From Symbiodinium natans (lineage: Eukaryota > Sar > Dinophyceae > Suessiales > Symbiodiniaceae): a stretch of DNA of 64,000 nucleotides. The stretch covers positions 62,001-126,000 of the forward strand of contig CAJNDS010001680.1 in assembly GCA_905221605.1 (NCBI GenBank), given 5' to 3'. Both the position numbers and the translations under genes were made by a program. Shown piece by piece: positions 1 through 64,000 of this stretch. Every line of letters begins with the position of its first letter. Position 1 is the first letter of the stretch. Below the pieces are notes generated by a model that saw only the letters and a list, made by a program, of their open reading frames with translations, was not told the origin of the DNA and made no database searches.

Positions 1-770
1 ATATATATAAAGCAACTCCCCGGCTGTAGCTGTCCTTTAGTTGGCACCAGCCGTAAACCAAAAGGTCAATTTCCAAACATGGGGGTTGTACAAGACACAA
101 GGGGGTCCCCCTAATATGCCCCGAAATAGTATAATTCTAAAAGGAACACCAAGTCGGGCACCCTTTAGTAACCCTATTTTCGGAAATCCCAAAGATGTCA
201 AAGAGCTCTACTTGAAGGTTCTCTTGGAGAGCAAGAAGCAGGCTCAAAGGTACACTAGCCTCATTCTAACCCTAGTTTTACCTAGCCATGAGCCTCCAGA
301 CCTGTTGCTGGCCCAACTTGAGCAAGGCTTCTCCACCCAACCTGTGTCAGACGACCAGGGATCGCCAGTTGCAGGATGCAAAAGAGTTGCTGGAATTTTC
401 GTGGTAACTTCCCACATAAGACTATACTCGAAGGTGAGAAGTAGATAATGAATGCTAAGGGCTGTGGTATTAGGCCTTTTTGTCTGCTCTTTGTGGTAAC
501 TTCCCATATATGTGGCACCGACGTCTGCTTGTCACGGTTTAGGGTATTGCTTGCTTCGGCAGGTTTTATAAGTCTGCAGCCACATGACCCACGGGATGCG
601 CTGCAGGAATCCCGTAAACCTTTGACTGTGTCTCTTCAAGCACTTCCGGTTTGCTCACATGACGCTGTAGGCCACCTCATCTGAGTGGCTGTGCAATCCT
701 AGCCACGTTATGCACGGGCGCACGACAGATATGCTGCTGTAAAGCGGCGGTTTTGGGCGGATTGTAGTGT
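1..770. other. Intergenic or intronic, little to name
   Basis: A hairpin-like element around 80-200 (GGGGGTCCCCCTAATATGCC ... TATTTTCGGAAATCCC) and a repeated GTGGTAACTTCCCAYATA at 401-418 and 493-510. An open frame at 41-448 is not protein-like. Confidence 0.4.
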
Positions 771-895
771 CTACTTGGGCGCTCATGTGTAGTTATAAGT
801 AGGATTATATGTACCCTAAGTCAGGTGATATGTATAGTTGCCCTACTTGCAACCCTACTTAAAACTACCCACGAACCTCCAAGTAGTAGTCGTGT
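771..895 (+). repeat. Hairpin element, family D
   Basis: CTACTTGGGCGCTCATGTGT ... CTACCCACGAACCTCCAAGTAG. Family D ends are CTACTTGGAGGTTCATGGGTAG and its complement, with inner TAGTTATAAGTAGGGTTATA. Weaker copies: 31285-31410, 46490-46530, 47637-47728, 60428-60530. Confidence 0.65.
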
Positions 896-1305
896 TAGAA
901 GTACCATGGACCTCCAAGTGAAAAATGGGAATCAGGAGCCCTATTCAAGAGAGGGTTTAACAAGGCGTTGAGAGAAACACTAGATTAAGGACTGTTCTTT
1001 TAGGAACATAAGGCTTCGCGTGGCCGGTGAAGCTTCGCATTCTAGGGTTTAGGGTTTACGGTTTAGGGTTTGCCGGCAGCCTCCAAAGTCCGTTGCCCAA
1101 AAAAAGGGCTTAGGGTTTAGGGTTTGAGTTTGAGGGCTCCGATGGCTGACAGAAACCTCAGCGCGCATTTTCCTGAAAGGGATTGGGGGCTGGATGGGAG
1201 TAGGGCTTAGGGCACCCAGAAAGGTCCGGATACCTGATCCTTTTCGGCTTGGGGACTCAAAAAAAAGCCCTCCAGGACTATGGTGTTTGGGACCTGAAAC
1301 CATAA

Positions 1306-1455
1306 CTGGGACCCAGAGTTACTAAGGCCCTTATTCTTTATTATTATTTTTTTTTTTTTTTTGGGGGGGGGGGGGGGGGTAGGTTCCCTTCTAAACCCCT
1401 TTAAACCAAACGAAGGGGTACCCTGTGTTATTGGGGGGGTTACTCTTGGGTCTAG
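1306..1455 (+). repeat. Hairpin element, family B
   Basis: CTGGGACCCAGAGT ... TTACTCTTGGGTCTAG, with a T16G17 run inside. Family B ends are CTAGGACCCAGAGTAGGCCC and GGCTACTCTTGGGTCTAG. Confidence 0.65.
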
Positions 1456-1569
1456 ATAAAGGTAAGGCTGTTCCCCCCCTATGATCATCCCTATAAAGGA
1501 CTGCTAGGAGAAGGGGAGACATCCCAAATAGGGGGCACTTGTTTTTTTCCTCCTACATGCCAGCAGCAG

Positions 1570-1627
1570 GCCTTCCGCAGTGACCCGCGGCTGTCCGAGC
1601 GCAACTTGTCCAACGAGCATGGAGGGC
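1570..1627 (+). CDS. Putative exon
   Basis: After CAGCAG, reads AFRSDPRLSERNLSNEHGG; followed by TTTAGGG repeats. No family recognised. Confidence 0.35.
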
Positions 1628-1933
1628 TCAGGGTTTAGGGGGTTAGGGTTGAATTATAGGGTTTAATTAGGGTTTAGGGTTTAGGGTTTAGGGGTTGTTA
1701 TACTTCTGGAAGTCTTCTAACTTTACGTTTTTTGTAGCAAATACTTTTGCGTGAGTAGATGCGGGACTCTATAAACCCTAAACCCTAAACCCTAAACCAC
1801 AGGTACCCTACACTTGGTTTCGGGTTTAGGGTTTAGGGTTTAGGGTTTCAACTCCATGGTTCAGCATGTTCTGGGATTCACAAGCCCAGACGGGAGTCGA
1901 AGTCGCCCAGGCCAACGCTCCTAATACAGGCGC

Positions 1934-2100
1934 CTACTTGAGGGTGTCATGGGTAGTTATTAGGGTTTAGGGTTTAGGGTTTAGAGTTTAGGGTTTATTA
2001 ATCCAGGGTTAGAAGTAGGGTAACTGTGCCTATGTTTGGTTATAAGCTTGCTTAGGGTACGTACAAGCCTACCTATAACTACCCGTGAACCTTCAAGTAA
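1934..2100 (+). repeat. Hairpin element, family D, with telomeric array inside
   Basis: CTACTTGAGGGTGTCATGGG ... CTACCCGTGAACCTTCAAGTA. Five TTTAGGG-type units interrupt the left arm. Confidence 0.6.
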
Positions 2101-2632
2101 GCAATTACTAGCATCATCCCTTTGTAGAAGCCGCGGCTTCTACAACTACAGCAAGCCCAAGTGGAATGAAGTTGTTTTTGCCGCTCAATGATGGTTGCCC
2201 TACTAACATCTTCCCCCCACAAAAAAAAGAACAAAGAATTAACTACTCATGTAATCATTCTAAACCCTAAGCCCATAGCTACCCATGTAGTTTCCGCAGC
2301 AACCTGTAAGGATCCCTGTAGATCGGCCCTGCGAACGGGTTTAGAGTTTTAGGATTTTAGGGTCTTAGAATTTTACGGCTTTGCGGTTTAGTTTTTTATG
2401 GTTTAGGGTTGTGTTTTCTTTGGCCTTCTGGCCCTGAATGCCCAACTGGCCGTAGAGATTCTTCAGAGGTCTTGAAGACGAAGACCAGTACCTTGGGAGC
2501 CTTGCCTGATATCACACCTCTTTTTTGGGCTTGTGTTGAGTTGCTGTGGCCACCCTAAACACACAACCGAACCTTAAACCCGAAACCCTAAACACACCAA
2601 GCCGACCTAGCCTCTGAACATCGAAGTGCTGA

Positions 2633-2731
2633 GTTTAGGGTTTAGGGTTTAGGGTTTAGGGTTTAGGGTTTAGGGTTTAGGGTTTAGGGTTTAGGGTTTA
2701 GGGTTTAGGGTTTAGGGTTTAGGGTTTAGGG
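2633..2731 (+). repeat. Telomeric array, G strand
   Basis: About 14 perfect TTTAGGG units. Confidence 0.97.
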
Positions 2732-2970
2732 GGTTACCCTACAGAACCCTGTCTACCCTGAACCCACGTCGAGTCGCAGGCTGCTGAAGGTGCATTCCGT
2801 CGACTCCCCTGTGAACAGGTGATGCGAATGGAACAGCAGCAGCCCCTAAGCCCTCCCCTCTACTCTACGTTTTAAAGACCACTAATACATTTTTTGCATC
2901 TCTCTCGTCACTGTCTGTATATACGTGTTTATGACCCTAAACCCTAAACCCCATTTAATTGGACTTGGGT

Positions 2971-3050
2971 CTTCGAGGCGCATCATCACGCAGATCGGTT
3001 CCCTCACAGATCCGGACCAGGCAGATTACGCCGCATCCTCAGCCAACGAT
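2971..3050 (+). CDS. Putative exon
   Basis: Reads RRIITQIGSLTDPDQADYAA then SSAND. CCCTAAA units lie upstream and TTTAGGG units directly downstream. Not recognised. Confidence 0.4.
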
Positions 3051-3150
3051 TAGGGTTTAGGGTGTAGGGTGTTTACGGTTTAGGGTTTAGGGTTTAGGGC
3101 TTAGGGTTTAAGGGCTCGGGCTGTAGGATCCAGAGTTTTTTAGGCTTCAG

Positions 3151-4301: not shown

Positions 4302-4392
4302 GCCCTAAACCCTAAACCCTAAACCCTAAACCCTAAACCCTAAACCCTAAACCCTAAACCCTAAACCCTAAACCCTAAACCCTAAACCCTAA
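4302..4392 (-). repeat. Telomeric array, C strand
   Basis: About 13 CCCTAAA units directly upstream of the exon-like island at 4405. Shorter degenerate units extend back to about 4246. Confidence 0.97.
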
Positions 4393-4404
4393 CCAAACCC
4401 AAAG

Positions 4405-4490
4405 GTCGACTTTCGGCGCAACATCATCACCTGCGAGGACGTCCTGAAGCAGATCATGTGCCATCAGGTCGCTGGCCTCCTAAGGTTGCC
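4405..4490 (+). CDS. Putative exon between inverted telomeric arrays
   Basis: Reads VDFRRNIITCEDVLKQIMCH then QVAGLL. CCCTAAA array ends 12 bp before, TTTAGGG array starts directly after. Helical and mixed-charge; family unknown. Confidence 0.45.
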
Positions 4491-4492
4491 TT

Positions 4493-9387: not shown

Positions 9388-9481
9388 AAACCCTAAACCC
9401 TAAACCCTAAACCCTAAACCCTAAACCCTAAACCCTAAACCCTAAACCCTAAACCCTAAACCCTAAACCCTAAACCCTAAG
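9388..9481 (-). repeat. Telomeric array, C strand
   Basis: About 13 CCCTAAA units between two strong exon-like islands (9311-9387 and 9494-9573). Confidence 0.97.
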
Positions 9482-9493
9482 TCAAGGGTTTAA

Positions 9494-9573
9494 GGGATGA
9501 GCGCATGAGGCAAGTCCAAGGCCGTGCGCAGCTTGACTCTTGGCTGATCAATGGAGCCCGAAACCTGGAACCC
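9494..9573 (+). CDS. Putative exon
   Basis: Reads DERMRQVQGRAQLDSWLING then ARNLEP. CCCTAAA array upstream, TTTAGGG array downstream (9604). Confidence 0.42.
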
Positions 9574-9906
9574 TAAGTTCGACCCCATGAGCCCGAACGA
9601 GCTTGAGTTTAGAGTTTAGGGTTTAGGGTTTAGGGTTTAGGGTTGTTCAGGGTTTAGGGTGTTTAGGGTGTTTAGGGTTTAGGGTTTTGGATGACACTTG
9701 GCTCCTAGGGCTTTGGTGTTATGCAGCTCGGTTTAGGGGTGAGGAGATTAGGGCTGCGGAAGAATCAGGGCATAGGGCATCACGATAGGTGAGCTCGCTA
9801 TGCTTATAGGCCTTACTGCGGAAGGTTCTTTGCTCCTCGAGGCTGGATGGTTGTAATATTGCTAAGATGCTAGGATCAGGGCTTAGATGGTTTTACGGCT
9901 TAAAGG

Positions 9907-10807: not shown

Positions 10808-11233
10808 GCCTTTGGATTGGGATGTTCCCGGCATTTTAGTACCACCGAATTATATATCATCCCCATGAAGGACTGTTAGTATAAGGGGGCACATCCCAAC
10901 CAATTTACGCTCAACGATTGCAAGGCTTCGGGAGCTGTAGGCCAAAGGTCTACTTAACTTCCACCCATGAAGAAGGACCCGGAGTGGGCCCTTATTCCCC
11001 TTTTTGTTTTGCTTTGGGGGGGGGGGGGGGGGGGGGGGGTTAGGTTCCCTAGAAGCCCAAAACCCCAAAATCCTAAACCCCCTAAACCCTAAACCCTAAA
11101 CCCTAAACCCTAAACCCTAAACCCTAAACCAAAACGGGACATATTTTTATTCCTGGCTCCATGATTTTAACATGTTTGAGGCCTCAGCCGCATCTGCGGC
11201 TTTCTGGGCTTCGGGGGTTAGAGTTTACCACTT

Positions 11234-11345: not shown

Positions 11346-11564
11346 ATGGTACCGGTTGGGCTTCTCCTAAACATGGTTTTCTCTGCCATCGTAGAGTCCA
11401 GGGCTCTTTGTTCCCTTCAGGCCGCTAAAGCCTCAAACTCGGACGACCCAGTTTGTCGGTTGTAGGGCAGAAAGGGCCTTGCGTCCTTCAAAGCTTTCAC
11501 AAGGGTGTACAGGTACTTTCTTCTGCTCCCTAAACCCTAAACCCTAAACCCTTAACGGTAAAAG

Positions 11565-11617
11565 GCCAGCATGAAGGATGCCGTACGGGCCATGGAGGCC
11601 GGATGCTCAGGGGAGTC
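11565..11617 (+). CDS. Putative exon between inverted telomeric repeats
   Basis: Reads ASMKDAVRAMEAGCSGES. CCCTAAA units at 11527-11552 upstream, TTTAGGG at 11618 downstream. Confidence 0.38.
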
Positions 11618-12747: not shown

Positions 12748-13429
12748 TAGGGTTTTGCCGGTGTGTAGGAGGCTCGTTGAGGGCGCTTAGTAGCTGAGTG
12801 AGTACACTTTACACTTTTTGGGATACTAGAACCCCCCTGTAAAGCTGAAGGTGTACACTTTTGGGGCTTATGAACCCAGCAACCAAGGGCGCGAGACATG
12901 TTTTTCTCGGTATCGTTGCAGTAGATAAGCTAGCTTAACGGGCGCGGGGTTGCTGGCAAAGCTGATGTGCAGCTGGCCCCTAAACCCTAAACCCTAAACC
13001 CTAAACCCTAAACCCTAAACCCTAAACCCCTTCAGAGGCTCTAGCTTGGACCCCTAGGATGGTACCCTTGGGTTTCGGGGGACCCTGTTTACAGATCCCT
13101 CAGGTAGTAGAAGGGCCATACTAGGAGTAGATTAAGGCTAATCCTCAGGGGTACAGCCTTAGGGGTACGAGTCTCAGTCCCTTGACCCCTGTCTAGTCTA
13201 GCTTCCGCTGCGCTCGGCGGCTTACAGAGTTTAACTCCCCTACAAGGAAGGGCACCCCCTTATGAGTTAGAGTCAGCAACTTAGGGTTCTTGCAACTCTG
13301 CAACTATGCCCAGGCGAGCCCTTGTAATCCCTAAGCCCCTAAACCCTAAGCCCTCAACCCCTAAACCTTAAACCCTAAGCCCCAAGCCCTAAACCCTAAA
13401 CCCCCTAAGCCCCAAACCCTAAACCCCAG

Positions 13430-13531
13430 CTCCTCGTGAGGCACCTGCACTCCCAGTCGGGCTCGAATCGCTCCTGTGACGTCTTGGAGCAGACGTCGCG
13501 GCTCTTGATCCAGCTGGCAAAGGCGCTTTAG
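13430..13531 (+). CDS. Putative exon, 33 codons between inverted telomeric repeats
   Basis: After ACCCCAG, reads LLVRHLHSQSGSNRSCDVLE then QTSRLLIQLAKAL. C-strand repeats upstream, TTTAGGG directly downstream. Confidence 0.45.
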   Translation, partial: LLVRHLHSQSGSNRSCDVLEQTSRLLIQLAKAL

Positions 13532-14589: not shown

Positions 14590-14943
14590 AGTACCCTGAC
14601 AGGATCCCAAGGGTGGCGACACCATGATGGCTGAAGAAATCGAGTGCCTGAGTCCGGCTCTCAAGGGGTTGTGTTGTTAGGTTCTTCGTAGGGAATGAGG
14701 GAATTCAGGCCCTATAGAATCCCTTAAAGGGTATACATAGATATTTAGGGCCCTCATATGTAGGGCCCTATATAATCCCTTTAAAGGGTATTTATTTATA
14801 TATATATATAGGGCCCTCATCCTAAGAACCAGGTTTTTTTTTGGTTTTGCCTGGGCTCCCATCCTCCTGCTCACGTCATGTCATGTCCGAACTGAAGGAG
14901 GGTTCCGACGTCTACTTTGGGAATGTAGGGTTTAGGGTTTAGG

Positions 14944-15014
14944 CTTCCCCTCCTATACTAACAGCTCCTTGATATGGGTTATAGGGACTGTTTGCCAAAG
15001 GGGGAGCATCCCAA
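14944..15014 (+). repeat. Hairpin element, family C
   Basis: CTTCCCCTCCTATACTAACA ... GGGGGAGCATCCCAAG, followed by an exon-like GTTCCGACATCTACCGG. Confidence 0.5.
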
Positions 15015-15642: not shown

Positions 15643-15772
15643 GGTTGTGTGGCTTCGGGGAGGGCCGAGTTGTTGTCTTTGATAAGGCATATTCCCGTCT
15701 ACGATCCTCGTTTCAGGAAACCCTCTCAAAACCCTAAACCCTAAACCCTAAACCCTCTAACCCTACCCCAAG

Positions 15773-15853
15773 ATCTGCCAAGATTTGCAGACCTTGGGCA
15801 AACGGAAGGCAAGCCCAAGCCTTCCCCAATAAAGAAGCCAAAGCCTCAACAGT
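15773..15853 (+). CDS. Putative exon between inverted telomeric repeats
   Basis: After CCCCAAG, reads DLPRFADLGQTEGKPKPSPI then KKPKPQQL, a basic Pro-rich linker. CCCTAAA upstream, TTTAGGG directly downstream. Confidence 0.42.
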
Positions 15854-15878
15854 TGGTTTAGGGTTTAGGGTTTAGGGG

Positions 15879-18434: not shown

Positions 18435-18493
18435 AGGAAAGCGCTGCTACGGCACCCAAAACCCTAAACCCTAAACCCTAGGAAAGCGCTGCT
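18435..18493 (+). repeat. 14-bp duplication flanking a telomeric stretch at an exon start
   Basis: AGGAAAGCGCTGCT at 18435-18448 and 18480-18493; between them CCCTAAA units. Comparable cases: GGGCCAGATGTATC at 22400-22413 and 22454-22467, TTGTGTTTTATC at 61282-61293 and 61318-61329. Confidence 0.8.
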
Positions 18494-18586
18494 GCTGGAT
18501 GCCATGTTGGCCTTGGTTGAGGGTCGCCTGGATAGCCGTATCCATGCCACTGGGAGCTGCAATTCTTGGGACTTCCCAAGGGAGGG
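18482..18586 (+). CDS. Putative exon, 35 codons
   Basis: After CCCTAG, reads KALLLDAMLALVEGRLDSRI then HATGSCNSWDFPRE. Its first 14 bases are duplicated upstream of the C-strand stretch; TTTAGGG follows directly. Confidence 0.48.
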
Positions 18587-24830: not shown

Positions 24831-24916
24831 CCCTAAACCCTAAACCCTAAACCCTAAACCCTAAACCCTAAACCCTAAACCCTAAACCCTAAACCCTAAA
24901 CCCTAAACCCTAAACC
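24831..24916 (-). repeat. Telomeric array, C strand
   Basis: About 12 CCCTAAA units inside intron 2 of the PDZ-like gene. Confidence 0.97.
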
Positions 24917-24947
24917 CAAAAGAAACGGGTCCCCAAGTCCAGTGTAG

Positions 24948-25040
24948 GTCAATGGTGAGGAGCTGCCGGCTTTTTGGGACCAAGCCGCGCCTTTGCTCCG
25001 GAAGGCCACCCAGACCCTCCCTCAGATCTCTCGGAGTGAT
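24948..25040 (+). CDS. PDZ-like gene, exon c
   Basis: Follows AGTGTAG and starts GTC AAT GGT GAG GAG CTG, completing the PDZ-like WVLTH-VNGEEL. It continues FWDQAAPLLRKATQTLPQIS to AGT. Phase 0 with exon b. The preceding intron (24764-24947) carries a 12-unit CCCTAAA array. It is followed by GATCCTTGG and a TTTAGGG array; GATCCT recurs at the start of exon d. Confidence 0.7.
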
Positions 25041-25448
25041 CCTTGGTTTAGGGTTTAGGGTTTAGGGTTTAGGGTTTAGGGTTTATGGGGATTAGTTACT
25101 TAGTTTAGGAGACAAATAAGATTATGTAATTATAAGGGTCCCTTCTATACCTCCCTATACCCCCTTAATAGGTGCTTCTGCCCAGTGTTATCCCTTTTTG
25201 CTTTTTTTTTTCTTTTGGGGGGGGGGGGTCCAAAGAGTTCCTGATAAAGTAACCATCCCCACAAAGGGAACCCTTATTGTAGTGTGGCGGTTGCCCTAAA
25301 CGCTATGCCCCCAAAGAAGGGTGCCCTTGTCGTAAACCCTAAACCCTCAACCCTCAACCCTCAACCCTAAACCCTAAACCCCAAACCCTAAACCCTAAAC
25401 CCTAAACCCTAAACCCTGCCCTTACCACAATATGGTTCCGGAGCCACC
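25041..25448 (+). mobile_element. Introner-like intron 3 of the PDZ-like gene, with telomeric arrays
   Basis: Left end GATCCTTGG runs into TTTAGGG repeats; the right end is GGAGCCACCAAG followed by GATCCT. The 6-bp duplication GATCCT flanks the intron, and removing one copy keeps the frame (RS-DPAPAP). If the cut is at AGT|GATCCT the intron is GA...AG, a donor class reported for dinoflagellates. It contains a CCCTAAA array at 25336-25419 and a G12 run. Confidence 0.6.
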
Positions 25449-25509
25449 AAGGATCCTGCGCCGGCGCCGCGCCAAGGCAGGAAGCCTGCAGCCAAGGGGA
25501 AATCCAACC
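25449..25509 (+). CDS. PDZ-like gene, exon d
   Basis: Starts GAT CCT GCG CCG after CCACCAAG and reads DPAPAPRQGRKPAAKGKSNL, a basic Pro/Ala-rich linker, in frame with exon c. It ends before GTTGC; the same GTTGC starts exon e after the next family A element. Confidence 0.6.
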
Positions 25510-25699
25510 TGGTTGCTAATATGTGTTTAGGGGTTAGGGTTTTAGGGTTTAGGGTTTAGGGTTTAGGGTTTAGGGTTTAGGGTTCCTGGTAGCCCAGTGG
25601 TACTCTTTTGCCCCTTTGTTTTTGGTTATGGGCCCCCGTTATAAAATGACCAACCCAAAAAAGGGTGCCCTTATGATATGATGGTTACGGGCTACCAAG
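25510..25699 (+). mobile_element. Introner, family A, intron 4 of the PDZ-like gene
   Basis: Starts GTTGCTAATATG, then a TTTAGGG array, then CCTGGTAGCCCAGTGG ... GGGCTACCAAG, followed by GTTGC again. GT...AG splicing across the duplicated GTTGC joins AAC CTG to GTT GCA in frame. The inverted ends are GGTAGCCC/GGGCTACC. Confidence 0.7.
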
Positions 25700-28272: not shown

Positions 28273-28352
28273 CCCTAAACCCTAAACCCTAGACCCTAGA
28301 CCATAGACGACCCTAGACCCTAAACCCTAAACCCTAAACCTAAACAGATTTA

Positions 28353-28424
28353 GGCCAAATGTGAGGCTGGTCGGGACTGATCCGAGCTTCGCAATGTTTC
28401 GGGGTTTGAGGGCTACGGTTCAGT
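28353..28424 (+). CDS. Putative exon between inverted telomeric arrays
   Basis: Reads RPNVRLVGTDPSFAMFRGL. CCCTAAA array upstream, 13-unit TTTAGGG array downstream. Confidence 0.45.
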
Positions 28425-28425
28425 C

Positions 28426-28520
28426 AGGGTTTAGGGTTTAGGGTCTAGGGTCTAGGGTTTAGGGTTTAGGGTTTAGGGTTTAGGGTTTAGGGTTTAGGGT
28501 TTAGGGTTTAGGGTTTAGGG
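28426..28520 (+). repeat. Telomeric array, G strand
   Basis: About 13 units, two of them TCTAGGG. Confidence 0.95.
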
Positions 28521-29078: not shown

Positions 29079-29188
29079 AGCAATGTACCTGAGCTCCAGA
29101 CCCCCCCCCCCCCCCCCCCCCACCCTAAACCCTAAACCCTAAACCCTAAACTCTAAACCCTAAACCCTAAACCCTAAACCCTAACCAG

Positions 29189-29266
29189 GAGCGGCAGAAG
29201 TTCCACATGCGATCCAAGCCTCTCGGCTGCAAGACCCTGGTTGCGTCACAGCTCACTGGTTTCTAA
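29189..29266 (+). CDS. Putative exon between inverted telomeric arrays
   Basis: After CTAACCAG, reads ERQKFHMRSKPLGCKTLVAS then QLTGF to TAA. CCCTAAA directly before, TTTAGGG directly after. Confidence 0.48.
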   Translation, partial: ERQKFHMRSKPLGCKTLVASQLTGF

Positions 29267-29322
29267 GGTTTAGGGTTTAGGGTTTAGGGTTTAGGGTTTA
29301 GGGTTTAGGGTTTAGGGTTTTG

Positions 29323-42600: not shown

Positions 42601-43131
42601 AATACTGACGGCCCTGATGCGGCTGGCTTAAAAAGAGAAGTTAAAACGCCCCCAAAATGTTTCGTTGAAGAATGAGAATTATACTTAAGCCCTACTACGA
42701 CACCTTATCTGCAGTGACTTTTGTTGGCAGGGGTGGGGTATCCATTTTTGTCGGGTGGGACAGACTGAACCCTGGACCCTTTGTTTCTAAGGATCCTAAA
42801 GAAAACCCCAAGAGTATCGTAGGAAATACAAGGTCCAAGGTAAATTTCTACTGCATTTTGGGATGTTCCCCCTTATACTGTTCATAAGAAACCCAAACAG
42901 GGAATCCCAAGAGTATAGTAGGAATACAAGGTCCTTGGTAGGTAAACTCCTATTACATTTTTGGGATGTTCCCCCTTATACGAACAGTTGCTAACAGACC
43001 ATAACAGAGATTGTAGCAGCCCCTCTTACAATTCCTATGAAGGACTGCCAGTATAAACCCTAAACCTTACACCCTAAACCCGGGAACATCCCTTTCCGTT
43101 CCTACTGTGTTCTTGGGGTTTCCTGCTACAG

Positions 43132-43179
43132 GTTCCCTCAGGTTCTCCGGGTGATCGACGTCCGGGCTGAACGCTGTGG
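43132..43179 (+). CDS. Putative exon
   Basis: After CTGCTACAG, reads FPQVLRVIDVRAERCG; a TTTAGGG array follows directly. Confidence 0.4.
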
Positions 43180-43292
43180 GTTTAGGGTTTAGGGTTTAGG
43201 GTTTAGGGTTTAGGGTTTAGGGTGTTCGCTGCAATACGGAACGTTGAGGGCTGTTGGCTGTGAGAGAACCGCCTGTGCCCTGCACATAGCAG

Positions 43293-44872: not shown

Positions 44873-45389
44873 GGCTAGGGTTAGGGTTTAGGGTTTGGGG
44901 TTACATGCCTGTTTCCCAGCTGATAGTGCAGAGCCTGGGTTCAAAAAAAAGGGTTTAGGGTTTTAGGGCTTAGGGTTTAACTAGGTTTCGGGTAAAAAGG
45001 TGATTCAGAGCTCAGGCGCAGGGTCGGGGCCTGATAAGGCCTGCAGTGTTGCGAGAGGCAGGCTTGGGACATGATGTGGCCTAGGGTTGCACCGCGGCTT
45101 GATGCAAAGGGTTTAGGGTTTAGGGTACTGCCCGCTTCAGAACCTCCCTCTAAGGGCAGTATTCTTCTTGAACTTTACCTCACCCAGCGGTTCAGGGATA
45201 AGGGTTTAGGGTTTACACCCTTGTGGTTCTTGCTGGTAGGGCTCCTGAAACCACCAAGCTGCACTCCAAGAGGCCCAATTCTTTGAATTTCCGTAGGGAA
45301 AGAAACCCCTTAAACCGTGTCGAGGTTGCTCCTCAGAAAGGGCCATGGGTCTAAACCCTAAAACTTAAACCCTAAACCCTAAACAGTGT

Positions 45390-45496
45390 TCTCACCAAAG
45401 CGGCCCAAGAGGAACATGACGCGCCTGCTGCGCGGTGCGCTTTACCTGGGTCTGGCCCTGGCGGCGCACACGGGCATGCCTCCTCGGCCCAGACAG
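45390..45496 (+). CDS. Putative exon with hydrophobic segment
   Basis: Reads PKRPKRNMTRLLRGALYLGL then ALAAHTGMPPRPR. Ends at a family D element. Inverted telomeric repeats on both sides. Confidence 0.42.
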
Positions 45497-45497
45497 G

Positions 45498-45625
45498 TAC
45501 TTGGAGGTTTAGGGTTTAGGGTTTAGGGTTTAGGGTTTGGGGACTTCTTATCCAACTATAACTGTACTTACAACCCACTTACAAGCCTCTCAAGTGCCCG
45601 AATATGGTTGTGAACCTCCAAGTAG
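45498..45625 (+). repeat. Hairpin element, family D, array inserted in its terminal repeat
   Basis: TACTTGGAGG runs straight into TTTAGGG repeats; the right end GTGAACCTCCAAGTAG is intact. The array replaces or splits the left arm. Confidence 0.55.
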
Positions 45626-46128: not shown

Positions 46129-46265
46129 GCCCTAAACCCTAAACCCTAAACCCTAAACCCTAAGCCCTAAACCCTAAACCCTAAACCCTAAACCCTAAAC
46201 CCTAAACCCTAAACCCTAAACCCTAAACCCTAAACCCTAAACCCTAGCCCTAAACCCTAAACCCT
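46128..46265 (-). repeat. Longest telomeric array, C strand
   Basis: About 19 CCCTAAA units with two single-base variants. Confidence 0.97.
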
Positions 46266-46291
46266 TTTCGGGCTAACTCGGCGAAGCCCAG

Positions 46292-46377
46292 CCTTGAGGT
46301 TCCTGGTTCCGACTGATGATGACTCGGAGGATGGGACAGGGCTTCAGGGGCCTGCTTCAGCGAGGGCCGAGAGGGTT
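46292..46377 (+). CDS. Putative exon between inverted telomeric arrays
   Basis: After AAGCCCAG, reads LRFLVPTDDDSEDGTGLQGP then ASARAER. TTTAGGG follows. Confidence 0.42.
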
Positions 46378-46682
46378 CAGGGTTTAGGGTTTAGGGTTTT
46401 AGGGTTTGGGGTTTGGGAGATACTTGAATCAAAGAGAAACCTTTCGGATCCCTAGTTTTTGTTCCCCAGGTTTGCTAGCTTCTGCAACCTTCCTTGAAGG
46501 TTCATGGGTAGTGCTAAGTAGGGTTAATCCCTTCCCCCTAATATTAAACGGACGGTCCGCCCCCCCCCCCGCCCCTTTAAAAGTTCGAAATGTGCTTTTA
46601 TCATTTGGGGGGTGTTCTCATCGAAATGTCGCAATATTAGACTTCAGGGTTACTCAAGTAATGAAGTACTTAATTGTGCTGT

Positions 46683-49264: not shown

Positions 49265-49549
49265 GTAAGTGTTCAGGGTTGAAGCGCTTGACCTTCTGAC
49301 ATAGCCCTAAACGCTACAGACGCCACGCCACTAGGGCTTCTGCCTTGAAGAAGCTACCCCGTTGAACCATCGTTTTTTGTCAGTTTTGCAGATTCGCCTG
49401 AACCATTTCTGCAAGGATTGGAAAGCACCCTAAAACCTAAACCCCATACCCTAAACCCATAATCCTAAAACCCGAGGCCCGAAACCCGAAACTCCTCTTG
49501 GGTTTGCCAACCCTAAACCTTAACTCTAAACTTTAAACCCTAAACCCTA

Positions 49550-49645
49550 CTGGAGGTGGGCTCTACTTCCTGTGCACGGCCACGTGGCTACTGCTGACCA
49601 TTGCAATTAAGCCTCCTGGCTTGCAACAGTGGCTTTTCTGGTGAC
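49550..49645 (+). CDS. Putative exon with membrane segment
   Basis: Reads TGGGLYFLCTATWLLLTIAI then KPPGLQQWLFW to TGA. CCCTAAA upstream, TTTAGGG downstream. Confidence 0.45.
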
Positions 49646-50176
49646 CAGGGTTTAGGGTTTAGGAATTAGGGTTTAAGGTTTAGGTAGTACCCTTCTTCCA
49701 GTTGTTAAGGCAGAGGAGAGTGGTGGCCCAGTCGTGCCCTTTTGCCCTCTTTTTTGGTTCTAGGCACCCTTCCAAACCCTAGCCTAAACCGTAACCAAAA
49801 AACACCCTAAACCCCTACAAAGGCCAAAAGGCACCCTAAACCCTATGAAGGCCGATAAACACCCTAAACCCCTATGAAGGCCAAAAGACACCCTAAACCC
49901 CAAACTCTAAACCCTAAACCCCTACCCCAAACCCCCAAACCTGAAGGGCTACTATTGCGAAGAGTCTTGCCAGGTTCCCAATTGCGCGGCACGAAGTGCG
50001 CGGCGGGGACTCTTGCCTTTGCTCGACCGTGCTTTTTGGGGGACTCGAAGAATTCGGGTGTAGGGTTTAGGGCTAGGGTTTGGGGTTCAGGGTTTAAGGT
50101 TTAGGGTGTAGGGTTTTTGGGGCTATAGGGTTTATGGGGTGTAGGGTTTAAGGTTCTAGCTCTTGAAAGCTTCTCA

Positions 50177-50298: not shown

Positions 50299-50593
50299 GA
50301 GCTTTGCGCGGGCTGATGGTGAAGGCTTCGGCATGGCTGGGGTTCGCATTGCGTTTGAATGGGGTTTGGCTTGAAAGGCTTCTTTGGGCTTGCAGGGAGC
50401 TACCCCTCGCTACAAGTAGGTGCATTGGACCCCGCCCTGTGGGGCATTTTTGACAAAGCAAAGTCCCAAAAACCCTAAACCCTAAACCCTTAACCCTAAA
50501 CCCTAAACCCTCCTCAGACCCTAGACCCTAGACCCTAGACCCTAAACCCTAAACCCTAAACCCGCACCCTATACCCTAAACCCTAAACGGAGC

Positions 50594-50678
50594 CCAGGAG
50601 ACCATGCCCGAGTTGTTTTACAGCATTTGGGCGCCGCCTGGGCTGCACAGAGCTTCTCCGCACTGGCTTCAGGATTGA
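50594..50678 (+). CDS. Putative exon between inverted telomeric repeats
   Basis: Reads ETMPELFYSIWAPPGLHRAS then PHWLQD. Confidence 0.42.
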
Positions 50679-51199
50679 AACAGCAGCTTAGGGTTTAGGT
50701 TTAGGGTTTCGGGCTAGGAGTCAACACCCCTTTCTAGATATTCAGGCCCCTATCTTAGTGTAGGGTCTTGTTGTTATGTAATGAATCAGTACATGATAGA
50801 GCTAAATAGATTCTGTATATACATGTAATATATGGATATTCTTTAATTCCTTGGTATATTTTTACGCATACATACTCGTGCATGTACATACATGAGCTTG
50901 AGATGGAGTTTCCGTTTTCCCAAAATGCCGGACACGGGTATTGCTTTGTGTTTGATAGCGTTGGACGTGTCGTATATGAGCAATTCTCTTCATTAGGGTC
51001 CTGTATATATAGGACCCTAAAAGGGATCCACATTTAGAGAGCGGCTCATGTAATAAGGCGGCGAACTTCAAAGACACTCCATAGTTTGGGGGCCATCAGA
51101 CAGGAGCTTTAAAACACCTCACAAAGGAAGAGCCCAAGACTACCCTGCAGGCCACTAGCCCAAGACTCCAACCCCACCCCCACCCCCACCCCCCCACCG

Positions 51200-51242: not shown

Positions 51243-51657
51243 TTCCCCGCCAACACCTAACTTGCATCCTTTGACCCCACGACGCCATGACACCGTGGCT
51301 CCCCAAATCCTGAACCCTAAACCCTCAACCCTCTAACCCTAAACAATCCCTAACCCTGAACAACCCTATACCATCCGAGAACACTTGCGTCCCAGAGACC
51401 TGGGAGGATCCACAAAGAAGATCCCCTTTCAGGGAATAGTAGCAAAGAGTATCCTGAACCCCAAACCCCCAAACCCTAAACCGCGACTTAGGGGCTCTAC
51501 TACAGGGAACGTCCCAGGGGTCTGGGAGAGTTCTTGAACCCAAAGACGACTCTAACCCCAAAAAACCCTAAACCCTAAACCCTAAACCCTAAACAATCCT
51601 AAGTCCTAAACCCTAAACCCTAAACCCATGAGAACACTTGCATAGTTCTTGGGCCCA

Positions 51658-51737
51658 AGCTTGAGATGAAAGGCTTTGGAAGCTGCTCTCCGAAGGCCAC
51701 GTGGCCTGGAGGTGCCTTGAGAAAAGCATTGAAAAAG
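51658..51737 (+). CDS. Putative exon between inverted telomeric repeats
   Basis: Reads KLEMKGFGSCSPKATWPGGA then LRKALKK to TAG. Confidence 0.42.
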
Positions 51738-51812
51738 TAGGGTTTAGGGTTTAGGGTTTACTGTAGGGTTTAGGGTTTAGGGTTTAGGGTTTAGGGTTTA
51801 GGAGGTTTCTCA

Positions 51813-54027: not shown

Positions 54028-54168
54028 CAAGTTCACGAACAGTCCTTAACTGAGATTATAGTACCCCCTAAACCCTAAACCCTAAACCCTAGACCCTAAA
54101 CCCTAAACTCTACACCCCCTACTAGAATCCCTATTAAGGGCTGTTCGTGGAAGGGGGAACATCCCAAG
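54028..54168 (+). repeat. Hairpin element, family C, with telomeric array in its loop
   Basis: Arms ACGAACAGTCCTTAA ... TTAAGGGCTGTTCGT and a GGGGGAACATCCCAAG right end. CCCTAAA repeats (54068-54115) sit exactly between the arms, where other copies have only AT-rich loop. Confidence 0.65.
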
Positions 54169-54255
54169 TGTCGAGGTTGCTGCGAGGAAGGCTTCCGGAG
54201 TAGGAACTCAGGCCGCCGAAGCCTGGAAGACCAACGAAAACTCGAACCCCTCCAG
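54169..54255 (+). CDS. Putative exon after a family C element
   Basis: After CATCCCAAG, reads VEVAARKASGVGTQAAEAWK then TNENSNPS; TTTAGGG follows directly. Confidence 0.48.
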
Positions 54256-54295
54256 GGTTTAGGGTTTAGGGTTTAGGGTTTAGGGTTTAGGGTTC

Positions 54296-54538
54296 AATCC
54301 CTGTAACACCCCAGCCCCAGCCCTAAACCCAAAACCTCAGAACCTAAACCCCTTTAACCCTGAACCCTACAACCCAAAGCCTCAAAACCTAAACCCCTTT
54401 AACCCTAAACCCTAAAACCCAAACATCAACACCCAAACCCCTTGAGCCCAAAACCCTAAACCCTAAGCCCGAAACACCCCTAAACCCTAAACCCTAAACC
54501 CTAAACCCTAAACCCTAAACCCTAAACCCTAAACCCTA
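54296..54538 (-). repeat. Telomeric array, C strand, mostly degenerate
   Basis: Degenerate units with an AACCCCTTT variant, followed by about 8 perfect CCCTAAA units (54480-54537). Confidence 0.9.
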
Positions 54539-54560
54539 TAGGCTCGGCAATCCTAAGCCT

Positions 54561-54654
54561 TTCGTGAGGTCTTCCGCGCGATTTGCGCCCCACTGCGGTC
54601 CCTGGCCATGACCTTCCTCGGGCGCCTTGGATTCAGAGCCAGGCTTGTGTTTCA
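54561..54654 (+). CDS. Putative exon between inverted telomeric arrays
   Basis: Reads AFREVFRAICAPLRSLAMTF then LGRLGFRARLVF. Confidence 0.48.
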
Positions 54655-54866
54655 GGGTTTAGGGTTTTGGGGGTTTAGGGTGTTAGGGATTTAGGGTGTA
54701 AGGGTTTTAGGGTTTTAGGGCCAGGGTTTTAGGGTTTTAGGGTTTAGGGTTTAGGGTTTTAGATTCTGAACTCTTATTCCTCAGTGAATCAGGCGGTTGC
54801 GGGCACTCCCATTTACACTTTCATGGGGTGGCCAAAGGTCCCTCGCAGGCTTGACGTTTCGATGCC

Positions 54867-56496: not shown

Positions 56497-56612
56497 TGGG
56501 GTTTAGGGTTTAGTGTGACGAACCAAGCCCGGATGCAAATGGGTTGAGTGTTTAGGGTTTAGGGCTACGGTTTAGATGCAGGGTGGAAGGTTTAGAGCTT
56601 ATAGAATCCACT

Positions 56613-56695
56613 TAGGCTGGTGATCATCACCTTTGTCTATGCGGGCATCGGCTTTCGCATCTTGACAGGGTTTGCCTGGCTTTCCTCGCCCAACC
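56613..56695 (+). CDS. Putative exon with membrane segment
   Basis: Reads RLVIITFVYAGIGFRILTGF then AWLSSP. With 58876 and 59344 it may belong to a membrane-protein gene. Confidence 0.42.
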
Positions 56696-57132: not shown

Positions 57133-57221
57133 GATACTTCCGAGATGACTTTCACCACTTCTGCGACGAGAACATTGTGACGTGCACAGAGACACCAGTG
57201 TGCACTGCAGCAGCTTGTTAG
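57133..57221 (+). CDS. Putative exon
   Basis: After TTTCAAG, reads GYFRDDFHHFCDENIVTCTE then TPVCTAAAC to TAG. His/Cys-rich; no family assigned. Confidence 0.45.
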
Positions 57222-58076: not shown

Positions 58077-58250
58077 AACCCTAAACTCCCTAAACGCTCT
58101 AAACTCCCTAAACTCCCTAAACTCCCTAAACTCCCTAAACTACCTAAACTCCCTAAACTCCCTAAACTCCCTAAACTCCCTGAACTCCCTAAACTCCCTA
58201 AACCCTAAACTCCTAAACCCTAAACGCCTAAACTCCTAAACCCTAAACAG
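58077..58250 (-). repeat. Telomere-derived satellite, 9-bp unit CTCCCTAAA
   Basis: About 12 copies of CTCCCTAAA, a two-base-longer derivative of CCCTAAA, expanded as its own tandem array. Confidence 0.9.
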
Positions 58251-58265
58251 ATTTTAGGGCATCAG

Positions 58266-58357
58266 GTCGGCCTCAGCCTGATGCTGAGCTCCACGAAGCC
58301 CGGGAATCCAGATTGGACGGAGCGGATGATGTACGCCCGGGGGCCCAGCACAGAGGG
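58266..58357 (+). CDS. Putative exon between inverted telomeric arrays
   Basis: After GGCATCAG, reads VGLSLMLSSTKPGNPDWTER then MMYARGPSTE. Confidence 0.48.
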
Positions 58358-58359: not shown

Positions 58360-58456
58360 TGGGGTTTAGGGTTTAGGGTTTAGGGTTTAGGGTTTAGGGT
58401 TTAGGGTTTAGGGTTTAGGGTTTAGGGTCTAGGGTTTAGGGTTTAGGGTTTAGGGT
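58360..58456 (+). repeat. Telomeric array, G strand
   Basis: About 13 TTTAGGG units after the island at 58266-58357. Confidence 0.96.
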
Positions 58457-58711: not shown

Positions 58712-58875
58712 CCTGTCTAGGGTTGACAGAAGGACATCCAGTCTTCAGTTGAGGTTTAGGTTTAGGGTTTAGGGTAGGTTCGTCGGAGGTCCAGGGCAGG
58801 TGGGCTTAGGGTTTGGGCGGGGTGAGTTCTTCGGTTGTTTTGTCGAGATCACGGTCTGTAAGACGGCCCTTGCAG

Positions 58876-58943
58876 GACATGAGCTACTTCATCATCTTCG
58901 GCGTCATCGTGTTGAACACCATTGCCGCCCGGATGCACGATGG
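58876..58943 (+). CDS. Putative exon with membrane segment and GT donor
   Basis: After CCCTTGCAG, reads DMSYFIIFGVIVLNTIAARM then HDG, followed by GTAGCC. Confidence 0.48.
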
Positions 58944-59407: not shown

Positions 59408-59695
59408 TGTTAGTTCCCTAATTGGTTTGATTAGAGACCTATTGGTAAATCTTTTTTTGGTGGCACCTTTAAACCTACCACCTGGTTACAAATCCTATTC
59501 CAGAACAAAGGCGGGAAGTCTGAACTTTTCAGAGGTCAGCCATCCTAAGCATACTTTAGGAGGATTCTGAGCCTAGCTCTTCTTTGACTCCCTAAACCCT
59601 AAACCCTAAACCCAAAACCCTAAACCCCCCTAAACCCTCCATTTGTTAAAAGCATACTTAAGAAAGGCCTTTCCCGACCTGTGGGCCCCCAAGAA

Positions 59696-59840
59696 CTTGG
59701 TAGCCCAGTGGTACCCTTTACCGGGTTTAGGGTTTAGGGTTTAGGGTTTAGGGTTTAGGGTTTAGGGTTCTGGGTTCCCTTATAAAGTAGCCAACCAAAA
59801 AGGGCACCCTCATTAGCATTTTCGCTTCTGGGCCACGAAG
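59696..59840 (+). mobile_element. Hairpin element, family A, with telomeric array inside
   Basis: CTTGGTAGCCCAGTGGTACC ... TCTGGGCCACGAAG, flanked by AGAA on both sides. Removing the element and one AGAA joins GCCTTTCCCGACCTGTGG to AAGATGCGAAGCCAG without a stop. Six TTTAGGG units replace part of the loop, so telomeric repeat was added inside an existing element. Confidence 0.65.
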
Positions 59841-60243
59841 AGAAGATGCGAAGCCAGAACCCGAACCCTAGGTTCAAAGACCCCCGAACACACCAAGGCC
59901 CTCAGACCCTCAACGCTTAGGGTTTAGGGTTTAGGGTTTAGGGTTTAGGGCTACACCTCAGACCAGTGGCAAAAAGGGTTTAGGGTTTAGGGTTTAGGGT
60001 TTAGGGTTTAGGGTCATTTCCCAAAGTAGGGGTACCCTGATATACCCCCAAATACGATAGTCCTTATCCTGGGACGGGCCCCACCCCCCTCAAAGGGTAC
60101 CCCTGTCTTCGGAAACCCCCATAGGCCTTAAAACCTAAACCTTACACCTAAACCCTGAACCCCAAACCCCAAACCCCAAACCCTGAACCCTGAACCCTGA
60201 ACCCTAAACCCTAAACCCTACCTTAAAACCTTTGACCTTACAC

Positions 60244-60319
60244 CGAGCTGTGAGGTGGGTCTAATCGTGGACTCCTTTGGTGCCCTACGCCCCTTGGATC
60301 GAAGAACTCGGTGGAGGGT
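60244..60319 (+). CDS. Putative exon between inverted telomeric arrays
   Basis: Reads CEVGLIVDSFGALRPLDRRT. Confidence 0.45.
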
Positions 60320-60579
60320 TCAGGGCTAGGGTTTAGGGTTTAGGGTTTAGGGTTTAGGGTTTAGGGTTTAGGGTTTAGGGTTTAGGGCTTCGGGTTTAGG
60401 GTTGAGGGTTTAGGGCTTAAAAGGTCTCCGATAGCTTGGAGGTTCGTGCGTGCTTGTAACTGCGGGTGCTACGCAATAAGTAGGGCAAACAAATTTCTTG
60501 GGTACTTTTGTAGGGTACTCAAAACCCTCAAGGTTTACAGGGCTTATGCCCCCTAAACCCGAAACCACAAGAAGAGGTT

Positions 60580-60662: not shown

Positions 60663-61051
60663 AATCCGAAAGGGAGCTTATGCCCCCTAAAGCCTAACAA
60701 GCCGGAAGCCTCCCGAGCTGCTTTGAGTCTACGGGGGCCTCACCTAGACAGCGCTATATAACACTTTGCACCCTAAACTCAAAAGCCCTGAATCCCAAAA
60801 TCCCAAATCCTGAAACCACGAAACCCTAAAACCCTGAAACCCTGAAGCTGCAGGCCTCAAATGCTAGGGTTCAGGGTGGTCTCGCGAAAAGCCTTCCTGG
60901 TAGATTAGGGATCTGGGTTTAAGATTCTTTAGGTGCCACCTGAAACCCTACACCCTAAGGCCTAAAACCTAACCCTAAACCCCAAACCCTAAACCGTAAA
61001 CCCCAAATTTTTAAACCCCAAACCCTAAACCCGAAACCCCAATCCCCAGGC

Positions 61052-61131
61052 TTGGACATGGAAGCACGGGAAAATGACCATCGGACGCAGACCTTCATTT
61101 CCTGCACCCTGCCCTGCACAGCGGTGCGGGC
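61052..61131 (+). CDS. Putative exon
   Basis: Reads DMEARENDHRTQTFISCTLP then CTAVR. Confidence 0.4.
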
Positions 61132-62165: not shown

Positions 62166-62442
62166 CTTGCTGTAGGGCACCCTAAACCTGATCGAAAACC
62201 CACCCCCCTAAACCCGAATCCCTACACCCTCAACCCGAAAAACCTTAAAGTTTTGTTCAGCCTTGCTCTTGCGTGTGCGAGAGTTTAAACCCCTCAGAAG
62301 GGTTGAGCTTGGGCGGGTTTAGGGTTGAGGGTTTAGGGTAATTCTGCGACTAGTCAAAGGCTTGGGGGTGTAGTTGTTTTGTGGGGAGGGGGCTGAGATC
62401 CAGGCGGGTCTCAACATTGCAGCACATTTCTTTTTTGGGCAG

Positions 62443-62583
62443 GCCGCATATAAGCTCCATCTGGGATGGGGTCGAGGTATCGCCGACGGCTTTGACTACC
62501 ATGAAACGCAGCGACAGAACAAGTGGGCTGCCTGGCGGCAAGCAGCCAGCAGCGAAAGCATGTCTGGAGAGCTATACAGCTGA
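62443..62583 (+). CDS. Putative last exon, 46 codons to TGA
   Basis: After TTCTTTTTTGGGCAG, reads AAYKLHLGWGRGIADGFDYH, ETQRQNKWAAWRQAASSESM, then SGELYS and TGA. Strong polypyrimidine acceptor and protein-like composition. Confidence 0.52.
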   Translation, partial: AAYKLHLGWGRGIADGFDYHETQRQNKWAAWRQAASSESMSGELYS

Positions 62584-62687
62584 TTTGTGACACGTGCGCA
62601 TGACAAGCAGATCCACCCTAAACCCTAAACCCTAAACCCTAAACCCTAAACCCCTATAGCACGAAACCAAGTGCAGGATGCAGAATG

Positions 62688-62771
62688 TTGTGGCTCGAGG
62701 GTTCGAAAAACCTGCAGGACTACATGGCTTTCATCTTCCACCTCTGCGAGACAGAGCTGGAGGTGCAACTG
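62688..62771 (+). CDS. Putative exon between inverted telomeric repeats
   Basis: Reads LWLEGSKNLQDYMAFIFHLC then ETELEVQ; it may start only after AACCTGCAG at 62717. Confidence 0.45.
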
Positions 62772-63008
62772 TTTAGGGTTTAAGGGTTTAAGGGTTTAAG
62801 GGTTTAGGGGTTTAAGGGTTTAAGGGTTTAAGGGTTTAGGGTTTAAGGGTTTAGGGTTGAGGGTTGAGGGTTTGGGCTAAGGGTTTAGGGTTTAGGGCAG
62901 TTTAGGGTTTATGGTTTATGGGCTGCAGATGGTAGATAGTCCTGGCTCACCAACTGGAGACCCCAAGGTCTCAAAGCATCTTCAGCTCCCCAATACCAAA
63001 AAGCACAG

Positions 63009-63080
63009 GAGCTGACGGGACCTGAGCATTACATCCGAACCTTGATGGACCGGGGCGACGCTGCTCTGCTGCAGAGGCTT
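63009..63080 (+). CDS. Putative exon
   Basis: After AAAGCACAG, reads ELTGPEHYIRTLMDRGDAAL then LQRL; ends at a family E element. Confidence 0.45.
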
Positions 63081-63204
63081 TACTACGATTTTACGACCCC
63101 CCCCCCCCCCCCAAACAAAAAGAAAACTACAACTAAAATAATCCCTATAATACGCTTGTAAGGAAGCTTTGGTGAAATTTCTGGGGGTTCTTAAGCAAGT
63201 AGTA
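63081..63204 (+). repeat. Hairpin element, family E
   Basis: TACTACGATTTTACGACCCC ... GGGGGTTCTTAAGCAAGTAG. Confidence 0.55.
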
Positions 63205-63621
63205 GTTGAGGGATCAGGCTTAGTGACCCTTTTAAACAGTGCAGCTTAGTGATTGGGAAATATACCCTTTGTTAAGGTACAAGGTTACGCTATGTAAATC
63301 CTAAACACCCTGTACTCCTTAAACTCCCTCTAAGTAGACCTTAAGCCTTTTTTTTTTGGGGGGGGGGGGGGGTTAATATCCCTACATAATCCCAAAGGTT
63401 AACCTCTAGGCCCCCGCGGGTACTGGACAACTAGGTGAATGTTGAGGTTAGAGCTATTCTGGGTCGTGCTTTGTGAAAATTTTGAGTTTGCCTGCTTTCC
63501 TTGACAAGAGAACCTACTCACAAATATGTTTGATTCGGTAACTGATGCTTATGTGCCTAGGGCTTGCCTTTTCTTTATGTAGAGGGCTGGAGTTTAGCGA
63601 CTGTTGGCAGGGCATGGGTTT

Positions 63622-63733
63622 CCCAGAGAGCCCGATACCCCTCAAACAAGGAATATGCCTTAAATCATATTCAGGATCCCCATATGATTTAAGGTCTATT
63701 CCTTGTTTAAGAGGTATCGGGCTCTTTGGGTTC
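63622..63733 (+). repeat. Hairpin element, family F
   Basis: CCAGAGAGCCCGATACCCCT ... AGAGGTATCGGGCTCTTTGG, a near-perfect palindrome with inner AACAAGGAATA / TATTCCTTGTT. Confidence 0.7.
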
Positions 63734-64000
63734 TTCCTTGTTGTCCAATACTGTCTTTGAATTTCGAACTGCACGAGAGGGGGGCAAGGCACAGGAGACC
63801 CACCGTTGCTTGTTGAGTAATATAGGGGTCGGAATCGTTACTGATAGCATTCCCTTATGGTCCCTTCATAGTTAGACTCTAGTGGCCCCCAAAACCATAT
63901 TATTCCGGCCCCTGCATTAGGGTTTTGGGTTTTGGGACTTGCGGGGTGTTGCCGAGACTGTGTCGATGTTTGGGTTGCAAAACAGGGCGTGCTTGAAGGT

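Follow-up and report, generated by a model that had tools for sequence, protein, structure and literature searches.

Side-specific orientation of telomeric repeat arrays around exon-sized islands in the Symbiodinium natans genome

In a 64,000-nucleotide (nt) stretch of the Symbiodinium natans genome (the window; positions 62,001 to 126,000 of the 763,484-base contig CAJNDS010001680.1, C1680), telomeric repeats are oriented relative to exon-sized islands, arrays of CCCTAAA (C arrays) lying preferentially upstream and arrays of TTTAGGG (G arrays) preferentially downstream. The polarity is not a fixed rule but a bias, roughly 3:1 at both ends of an intron, and its excess is confined to short gaps running from a C array to a G array (C-to-G gaps). 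Three C-to-G islands, two in the window and one elsewhere in the genome, hold predicted exons supported by homology.

Orientation bias around exon-sized gaps

The window contained 369 TTTAGGG and 296 CCCTAAA units, and perfect arrays of at least two units made up 5.03% of it (6.01% of 297,362 bases when the window was pooled with 24 loci, 3 of them picked for arrays). Across the assembly scanned (759,417,921 bases in 2,543 contigs), a three-unit pattern was matched 1,185,204 times in forward and 1,184,385 times in reverse orientation (2.37 million in total), against 41 and 33 matches for the same pattern read backwards. TTTAGGG is reported as the dinoflagellate telomere unit in the accessible part of one source (PMC11453091), and arrays of a telomere-type unit away from chromosome ends, as seen here, would be classed as interstitial telomeric sequence (ITS). 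Abundance was uneven among 15 samples from other contigs: 12 held at least one unit and 11 held arrays of at least two units, while five held 15 units or fewer, three of these five having none. Either array density varies along the assembly, or another organism contributed part of the contigs. The 10-kb stretches without telomeric units were L018, L022 and L024 (contigs C40, C200 and C400), the last carrying a 999-amino-acid open frame. The assembly size, the repeat unit and the style of the introns are suggestive of a dinoflagellate; no spliced-leader sequence was found in the window with up to three mismatches allowed.

The first-pass annotation of the window listed 20 islands as examples of a fixed polarity, with C arrays before and G arrays after. 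The order was recovered at 18 of the 20 (nearest neighbours, a C unit or array within 120 nt upstream and a G unit or array within 200 nt downstream). The island at 22225 had no C array nearby, the nearest unit being 791 nt away, and that at 58266 had a 14-unit C array upstream with one TTTAGGG unit intervening. Among neighbouring window arrays of at least three units lying 60-160 nt apart, 19 pairs were C-to-G, 3 G-to-C, 2 C-then-C and 3 G-then-G, while in 20,000 shuffles of orientation the C-to-G pairs averaged 6.6 and never exceeded 16. Median gaps in the window were 118 nt for C-to-G and 591 nt for G-to-C pairs, and overall alternation of arrays was unremarkable (24 C-to-G, 24 G-to-C, 26 G-then-G and 13 C-then-C).

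The same orientation bias was found genome-wide. C and G units separated by 90-120 nt gave 134,342 matches in C-to-G order and 47,188 in G-to-C order, counted by spacing rather than by annotated exon borders and as matches rather than loci, long arrays being counted repeatedly on both sides; reversed-pattern controls for both searches gave 0. The same two patterns gave 61 and 15 matches in a sample not picked for arrays. At 15 loci on other contigs, 28 C-to-G pairs with gaps of 101-160 nt were counted (shuffle mean 18.65), a number reached by 8 of 2000 shuffles. The histogram of C-to-G gaps peaked sharply at 90-134 nt, a range that was picked after the histogram had been seen. With arrays of at least two units in this range, the window alone gave 21 C-to-G, 4 G-then-G, 2 C-then-C and 1 G-to-C pairs, while unpicked sequence (the window plus 21 loci not chosen for arrays, 267,362 bases) gave 71 C-to-G, 23 C-then-C, 22 G-then-G and 11 G-to-C pairs, a C array lying upstream in 74% and a G array downstream in 73%. 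Orientation was therefore nonrandom, as first proposed, and "fixed" proved too strong a word for it.

Exons within the islands

The plus strand at 54-64 kb of the window is predicted to encode an IP3/ryanodine receptor-like channel domain, from S5 to the C-terminus. A channel-domain profile was built from the stretches of IP3R1-3 and RyR1 that match PDB chains and was aligned with introns allowed. It scored 34.3 on this strand, compared with a mean of 19.9 (standard deviation (sd) 2.7, maximum 30.1) for 300 block-permuted profiles, a maximum of 25.0 for 40 dinucleotide-shuffled sequences, 16.4 for the minus strand of the same segment and 14.3-23.5 for 12 other combinations of chunk and strand. 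The aligned pieces kept the order S5 (56616), 57133, S6 (58810-58923), 60255, 61050, 62477, 62718 and 63009, a few very short pieces of the alignment being surely spurious. The exons and arrays of this region are as follows.

56616..56656, plus strand: predicted exon LVIITFVYAGIGF, pore helix S5 (alignment)
57133..57220, plus strand: predicted exon YFRDDFHHFCDENIVTC.., after S5 (alignment)
58079..58247: C-strand array, 14 units, before the island at 58266; single G unit at 58253-58259
58264..58349, plus strand: exon candidate VGLSLMLSSTKPGNPDWTERMMYARG.., recognized only by eye and left out by the alignment
58365..58455: 12-unit G-strand array following the candidate 58264..58349
58810..58923, plus strand: predicted exon with DMSYFIIFGVIVLNTI, pore helix S6 (start at 58810 in the alignment, 58876 in the gene finder)
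60202..60215: C-strand array, 2 perfect units with degenerate units upstream, before the exon in the island at 60244
60255..60288, plus strand: predicted exon VGLIVDSFGAL.., end of S6 of IP3R/RyR, in the island at 60244 (splice-aware alignment; donor end uncertain)
60332..60415: 10-unit G-strand array following exon 60255..60288
61050..61123, plus strand: exon candidate LDMEAR..TFISCTLPC (alignment), preceded by a C array at 60973-61029
62477..62526, plus strand: predicted exon part RIADGFDYHETQRQNKW (alignment)
62616..62650: C-strand array, 5 units, before the exon in the island at 62688
62684..62762, plus strand: predicted exon ..NLQDYMAFIFHLCETELE, C-terminal domain of IP3R/RyR (62718-62762 in the alignment, longer form from the gene finder)
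62772..62907: 7-unit G-strand array, 9 nt past exon 62684..62762
63009..63035, plus strand: predicted exon ELTGPEHYI.., in frame after 62684..62762 (alignment)

All arrays of at least two units examined within 50 nt of an exon of this region followed the C-before, G-after order: C arrays precede 60255, 61050, 62684 and the candidate at 58264, and G arrays follow 60288, 62762 and the candidate at 58264-58349. On neither side of the S6 part did an array of at least two units come within 90 nt.

Alignments with other settings and other receptor parts gave mixed results. Over 42.3-64 kb at the lowest intron penalty, the true score was reached by one permuted profile in 40, and over the whole window at penalty 5 the score was a supportive 80.1 against a permuted maximum of 76.1 (30 profiles). 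Several results lent the receptor no support. At intron penalty 8 the window as a whole scored 21.9 (mean of 40 permuted profiles 19.4, maximum 26.8), the S1-S4 membrane segments scored 31.1 and 21.1, equalled by 38 and 28 of 40 permuted profiles, and for six N-terminal segments (ligand-binding and ARM) searched in 1-50 kb, between 4 and 16 of 16 permuted profiles were as high. The N-terminal domains may have diverged too far for this search, or may be encoded elsewhere. An exon with the selectivity-filter motif GGGIGD or GGGVGD was not found, the candidate at 58264-58349 sitting at the right place without the motif. A phmmer search of the stitched exons against PDB gave no receptor match, only two designed repeat proteins falling below E 0.001; Pfam scans of plus-strand translations with stops read as X (42.3-52.3, 54-64 and 24-33 kb) gave a best E of 0.19, and the stitched C-terminus a best E of 0.097, to a family of unknown function. 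With S1-S4 and the N-terminus unsupported and these direct searches empty, the gene call therefore rests on the channel domain. A C-terminus pieced together by eye matched a small receptor profile in hmmsearch (E 1.5e-4 among 2,880 sequences), a result set aside because the joins were hand-chosen, and gene finding by codon usage proved too permissive and was kept out of the counts.

A third exon came from dynein genes, for which the Pfam family AAA_9 had 20 matches in the genome. Flanks were read for nine of them (two in L033, one each in L034 to L038 and two in L039). At the exon in L038 (C96:68531-68617, Pfam E 5.3e-5), read on the gene strand, a C array of 7 units stops 5 nt short of the match and a G array of 4 units starts 25 nt downstream, with a C-to-G gap of 117 nt; another 7-unit G array lies upstream of this C array. 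Arrays of at least two units were absent around the other eight of the nine, in flanks of at least 286 nt on each side, and arrays are therefore not needed for splicing. The C-to-G arrangement thus appears, from homology, to occur around a true exon, but to be optional. A further AAA_9 match (C2492:213153-213818) lies inside a 3,242-amino-acid open frame and seems to belong to a dynein copy that lacks introns, in a genome that also has copies with several exons.

The earlier description of the islands as exon-like is borne out at 60244 and at 62688, and the dynein exon on another contig has the same arrangement. The other C-to-G islands of the window, exon candidates unless stated otherwise, are listed below; among the 34 window islands no mutual similarity was found.

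2949..3055
4387..4490, 14 C units before and 9 G units after
9475..9614
11549..11617
13424..13526
15753..15856
18476..18586, C array reaching CCCTAG, G array beginning GGGTTTAGGG
24915..25046
25414..25525
28339..28429
29179..29268, 7 C and 7 G units
43079..43180
45384..45507
46262..46382, 17 C units before
49545..49650, membrane-helix-like frame
50588..50699
51625..51742
54108..54257, C-to-G island, C array inside a hairpin-like repeat
54534..54657, 9 C and 9 G units
59635..59725, C-to-G island, probably not an exon, containing one end of an intron-recurring repeat

Coding signal in the islands was mixed. Three-base autocorrelation was 0.0129 ± 0.0033 in C-to-G segments (gap 70-160 nt, n = 104) and 0.0005, 0.0007 and -0.0076 in G-to-C, C-then-C and G-then-G segments, with a permutation p of 0.0002, or 0.004 after 15 nt had been trimmed off each end; it was 0.0005 for C-to-G gaps of 161-320 nt and 0.0161 for the open frame of a retroelement in the window. 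Other measures qualify this signal. The window's own 33 islands stayed below significance (0.0061 ± 0.0062), random array-free segments reached 0.0086 ± 0.0018, and island coding scores were nearly equal on the two strands (3.38 and 3.27; shuffled 2.90, sd 0.15). Open GT-AG exons were found in 25 of 34 islands on the plus and 29 of 34 on the minus strand. A GT marks where the G array begins in 28 window islands out of 34, and in 31 of 34 on the mirrored strand; because this follows partly from the repeat itself, splice signals were indistinguishable from the repeat.

Apparent independence of array ends and possible origin of the bias

Within the 90-134 nt range, array orientation on one side of an exon appears independent of that on the other, and the same goes for the start and the end of an intron. 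In unpicked sequence, independence of exon flanks predicts 68.8 C-to-G, 25.2 C-then-C, 24.2 G-then-G and 8.8 G-to-C pairs, close to those counted (odds ratio 1.54, p 0.36). Intron ends were taken as the first and last arrays between two 90-134 nt gaps lying at most 2,500 nt apart, the introns being inferred from exon-like gaps; the 68 pairs comprised 39 G-to-C, 14 C-then-C, 12 G-then-G and 3 C-to-G, for 39.8, 13.2, 11.2 and 3.8 expected (odds ratio 0.70, p 0.74). The wider bin of 75-150 nt goes the other way, flanks being linked with an odds ratio of 2.80 (p 0.01), and of 15 in the window alone. Admixed non-exon G-to-C gaps may have produced this linkage.

Our tentative preference, held at a little below even confidence, is that each splice site acquires the bias on its own, since splicing would accept only one orientation of array beside an exon. 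A G array right after an exon would supply GGTTTAG donors. Right before an exon, a C array would offer a CTAAA motif resembling a branch point, together with pyrimidines and no AG, so that the first AG beyond the array would become the acceptor, while a G array in this position would put a decoy acceptor, TTTAG, in each unit. Arrays of the wrong orientation would be purged by selection, or would never grow since splice-site motifs seed the right one; both routes would fit. Complementary intron ends would then be a by-product. Besides the dynein exons without arrays and the linkage at 75-150 nt, two further observations count against splice-site acceptance: array length had no effect on the orientation bias, and 2-unit G arrays lie 50-105 nt upstream of the receptor exons at 56616, 58876 and 62443 (arrays at 56551-56564, 58761-58774 and 62318-62338), the one before the S5 exon being 51 nt away, contrary to the rule.

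A bias of insertion or growth without selection, through telomerase or slippage on splice motifs like GGTTTAG and CTAAAC or through a transcription-coupled process, is less likely, yet deserves weight. It agrees with the independence of intron and exon ends and with arrays that also sit, as judged by eye, within hairpin-like intron repeats at unit-like points (54040-54165, 59690-59850); GGG occupies the 3 nt ahead of the first TTTAGGG in 18 of 34 islands, and on the mirror side in 26 of 34. Away from exon-sized gaps, however, the probability of a C array upstream drops to 0.33-0.42, as introns bounded by G and then C arrays would give, and a separate growth bias would therefore not be needed.

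The first-pass annotation had offered two explanations of its own, and the independence of flanks and of intron ends disfavours both. Under the one, the G array that opens an intron and the C array that closes it pair in the pre-mRNA, draw the splice sites close to each other and would be kept for that purpose. Pairing is possible, the median for duplexes of intron ends being -61.7 kcal/mol and that for random pairs of 80 nt -33.7, and introners of Amoebophrya, with inverted repeats at both intron ends, have been proposed to act in the same way (PMC7789003, accessible part). Matched ends were nevertheless no commoner than chance, an exon's own flanks, some 118 nt apart, pair as strongly (-59.8 kcal/mol), and they are paired in 33 of the 34 island folds, which would loop out the exon; such retention of arrays for pairing seems improbable.

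Slightly more doubtful still is the other, in which the islands are once-capped fragments joined head to head, or a variant of it, in which breaks within genes were capped by telomerase on both sides and rejoined, or the islands are inserted telomere-capped DNA pieces. A capped fragment has the same C-island-G order, array gaps below 15 nt comprised four G-to-C and no C-to-G in 247,362 bases, and primates and rodents are reported to gain ITS when breaks are repaired (PMC7215372, accessible part). Strictly abutting G-to-C joints numbered only one in the same 247,362 bases, the receptor exons keep their order on a single strand, and one-sided and same-orientation flanks are common, besides the lack of linkage at 90-134 nt. 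The linkage in the 75-150 nt bin keeps the probability of capped fragments low rather than nil. One head-to-head junction, at 23250-23300, runs from a TTTAGGG array almost directly into a CCCTAAA array.

Very unlikely, finally, are arrays that serve as terminal inverted repeats of an introner-type transposon. Introners with such repeats are known in several lineages, Symbiodinium microadriaticum included (PMC9860276, accessible part), but intron ends were not coupled as inverted copies would be, the 34 islands are mutually dissimilar, and the arrays vary in unit number.

Acceptance at single splice sites could be extended to telomeric repeats acting as genome-wide, orientation-coded splice brackets, with telomerase-type growth supplying intron ends, a C array meaning "exon follows" and a G array "exon ended"; we regard this broader idea as rather unlikely. 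Telomeric DNA in genes is usually viewed as a repair scar. Tens of thousands of oriented arrays beside exons, an extrapolated number, would show the telomeric unit to be capable of persisting as intron sequence compatible with splicing, and such a genome would be a natural test of the effect of repeat orientation on splicing. An exon between complementary repeats is a known setting for back-splicing in animals, and the flanking complementary arrays predict circular RNAs.

Other elements and comparison with known systems

A Copia-like retroelement occupies 33232-42199 on the minus strand, with a 2,258-amino-acid open frame and two further frames (RVT_2 match E 3.6e-7, just under Pfam's cut-off). 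It contains only four single telomeric units, and the identical short frames that flank it (32839-32895 and 42230-42286) suggest long terminal repeats. Two families of recurrent hairpin-like repeats were recognized by eye. The first has ends like TGGTAGCCCAGTGGTACCCT / ACTGGGCTACCA (for example 25600-25700, 26000-26120, 30300-30400 and 59690-59850), some copies enclosing telomeric arrays; the second, GGGATGTTCCCCCTTATAC..AACAGTCCTTAATAGGGAT, occurs at 10810-10900, 14940-15010, 47440-47640 and 54040-54165, one copy being split by a C array. Rfam and tRNA scans of the window gave no hits, and viral and GTDB collections held no match to C and G units separated by 70-100 nt, to the intron-repeat pattern or to the retroelement protein.

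No description of telomeric arrays oriented by exon borders was found in the accessible parts of the literature searched, in which subscription journals were barely covered. Like ITS elsewhere, the arrays described here are telomeric units inside chromosomes, those of mammals being inserted at break repair (PMC7215372). In yeast, the influence of orientation on instability has been studied with a telomeric tract placed in the artificial intron of a reporter (PMC6410037). The S. natans arrays differ in hugging exon-sized islands, in side-specific orientation and in very large numbers, no exon-related rule being stated in the accessible parts of the ITS papers. Introners of Amoebophrya and other dinoflagellates share complementary intron ends, with a proposed hairpin joining exon borders (PMC7789003, PMC9860276), whereas in the available text the Amoebophrya repeats are 8-20 nt long and paired per intron, and those of S. 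natans are telomeric, often of 3-14 units, with independent ends. Bands of telomere-like TTTAGGG repeats run through the chromosomes of another alveolate, Eimeria, where they accompany CAG repeats coding for amino-acid runs, exon-flank polarity not being described in the accessible part of that source (PMC9131526). Plant telo boxes are likewise telomeric motifs in genes, 5' untranslated regions (UTRs) and first introns, but are short and of promoter type, at about 150 per Mb in Arabidopsis introns, and the words "orientation" and "strand" never occur in the main text of the paper concerned (PMC3022908). As far as these partly accessible sources go, telomeric arrays and complementary intron ends were already known, and their exon-side-specific orientation is apparently the new part.

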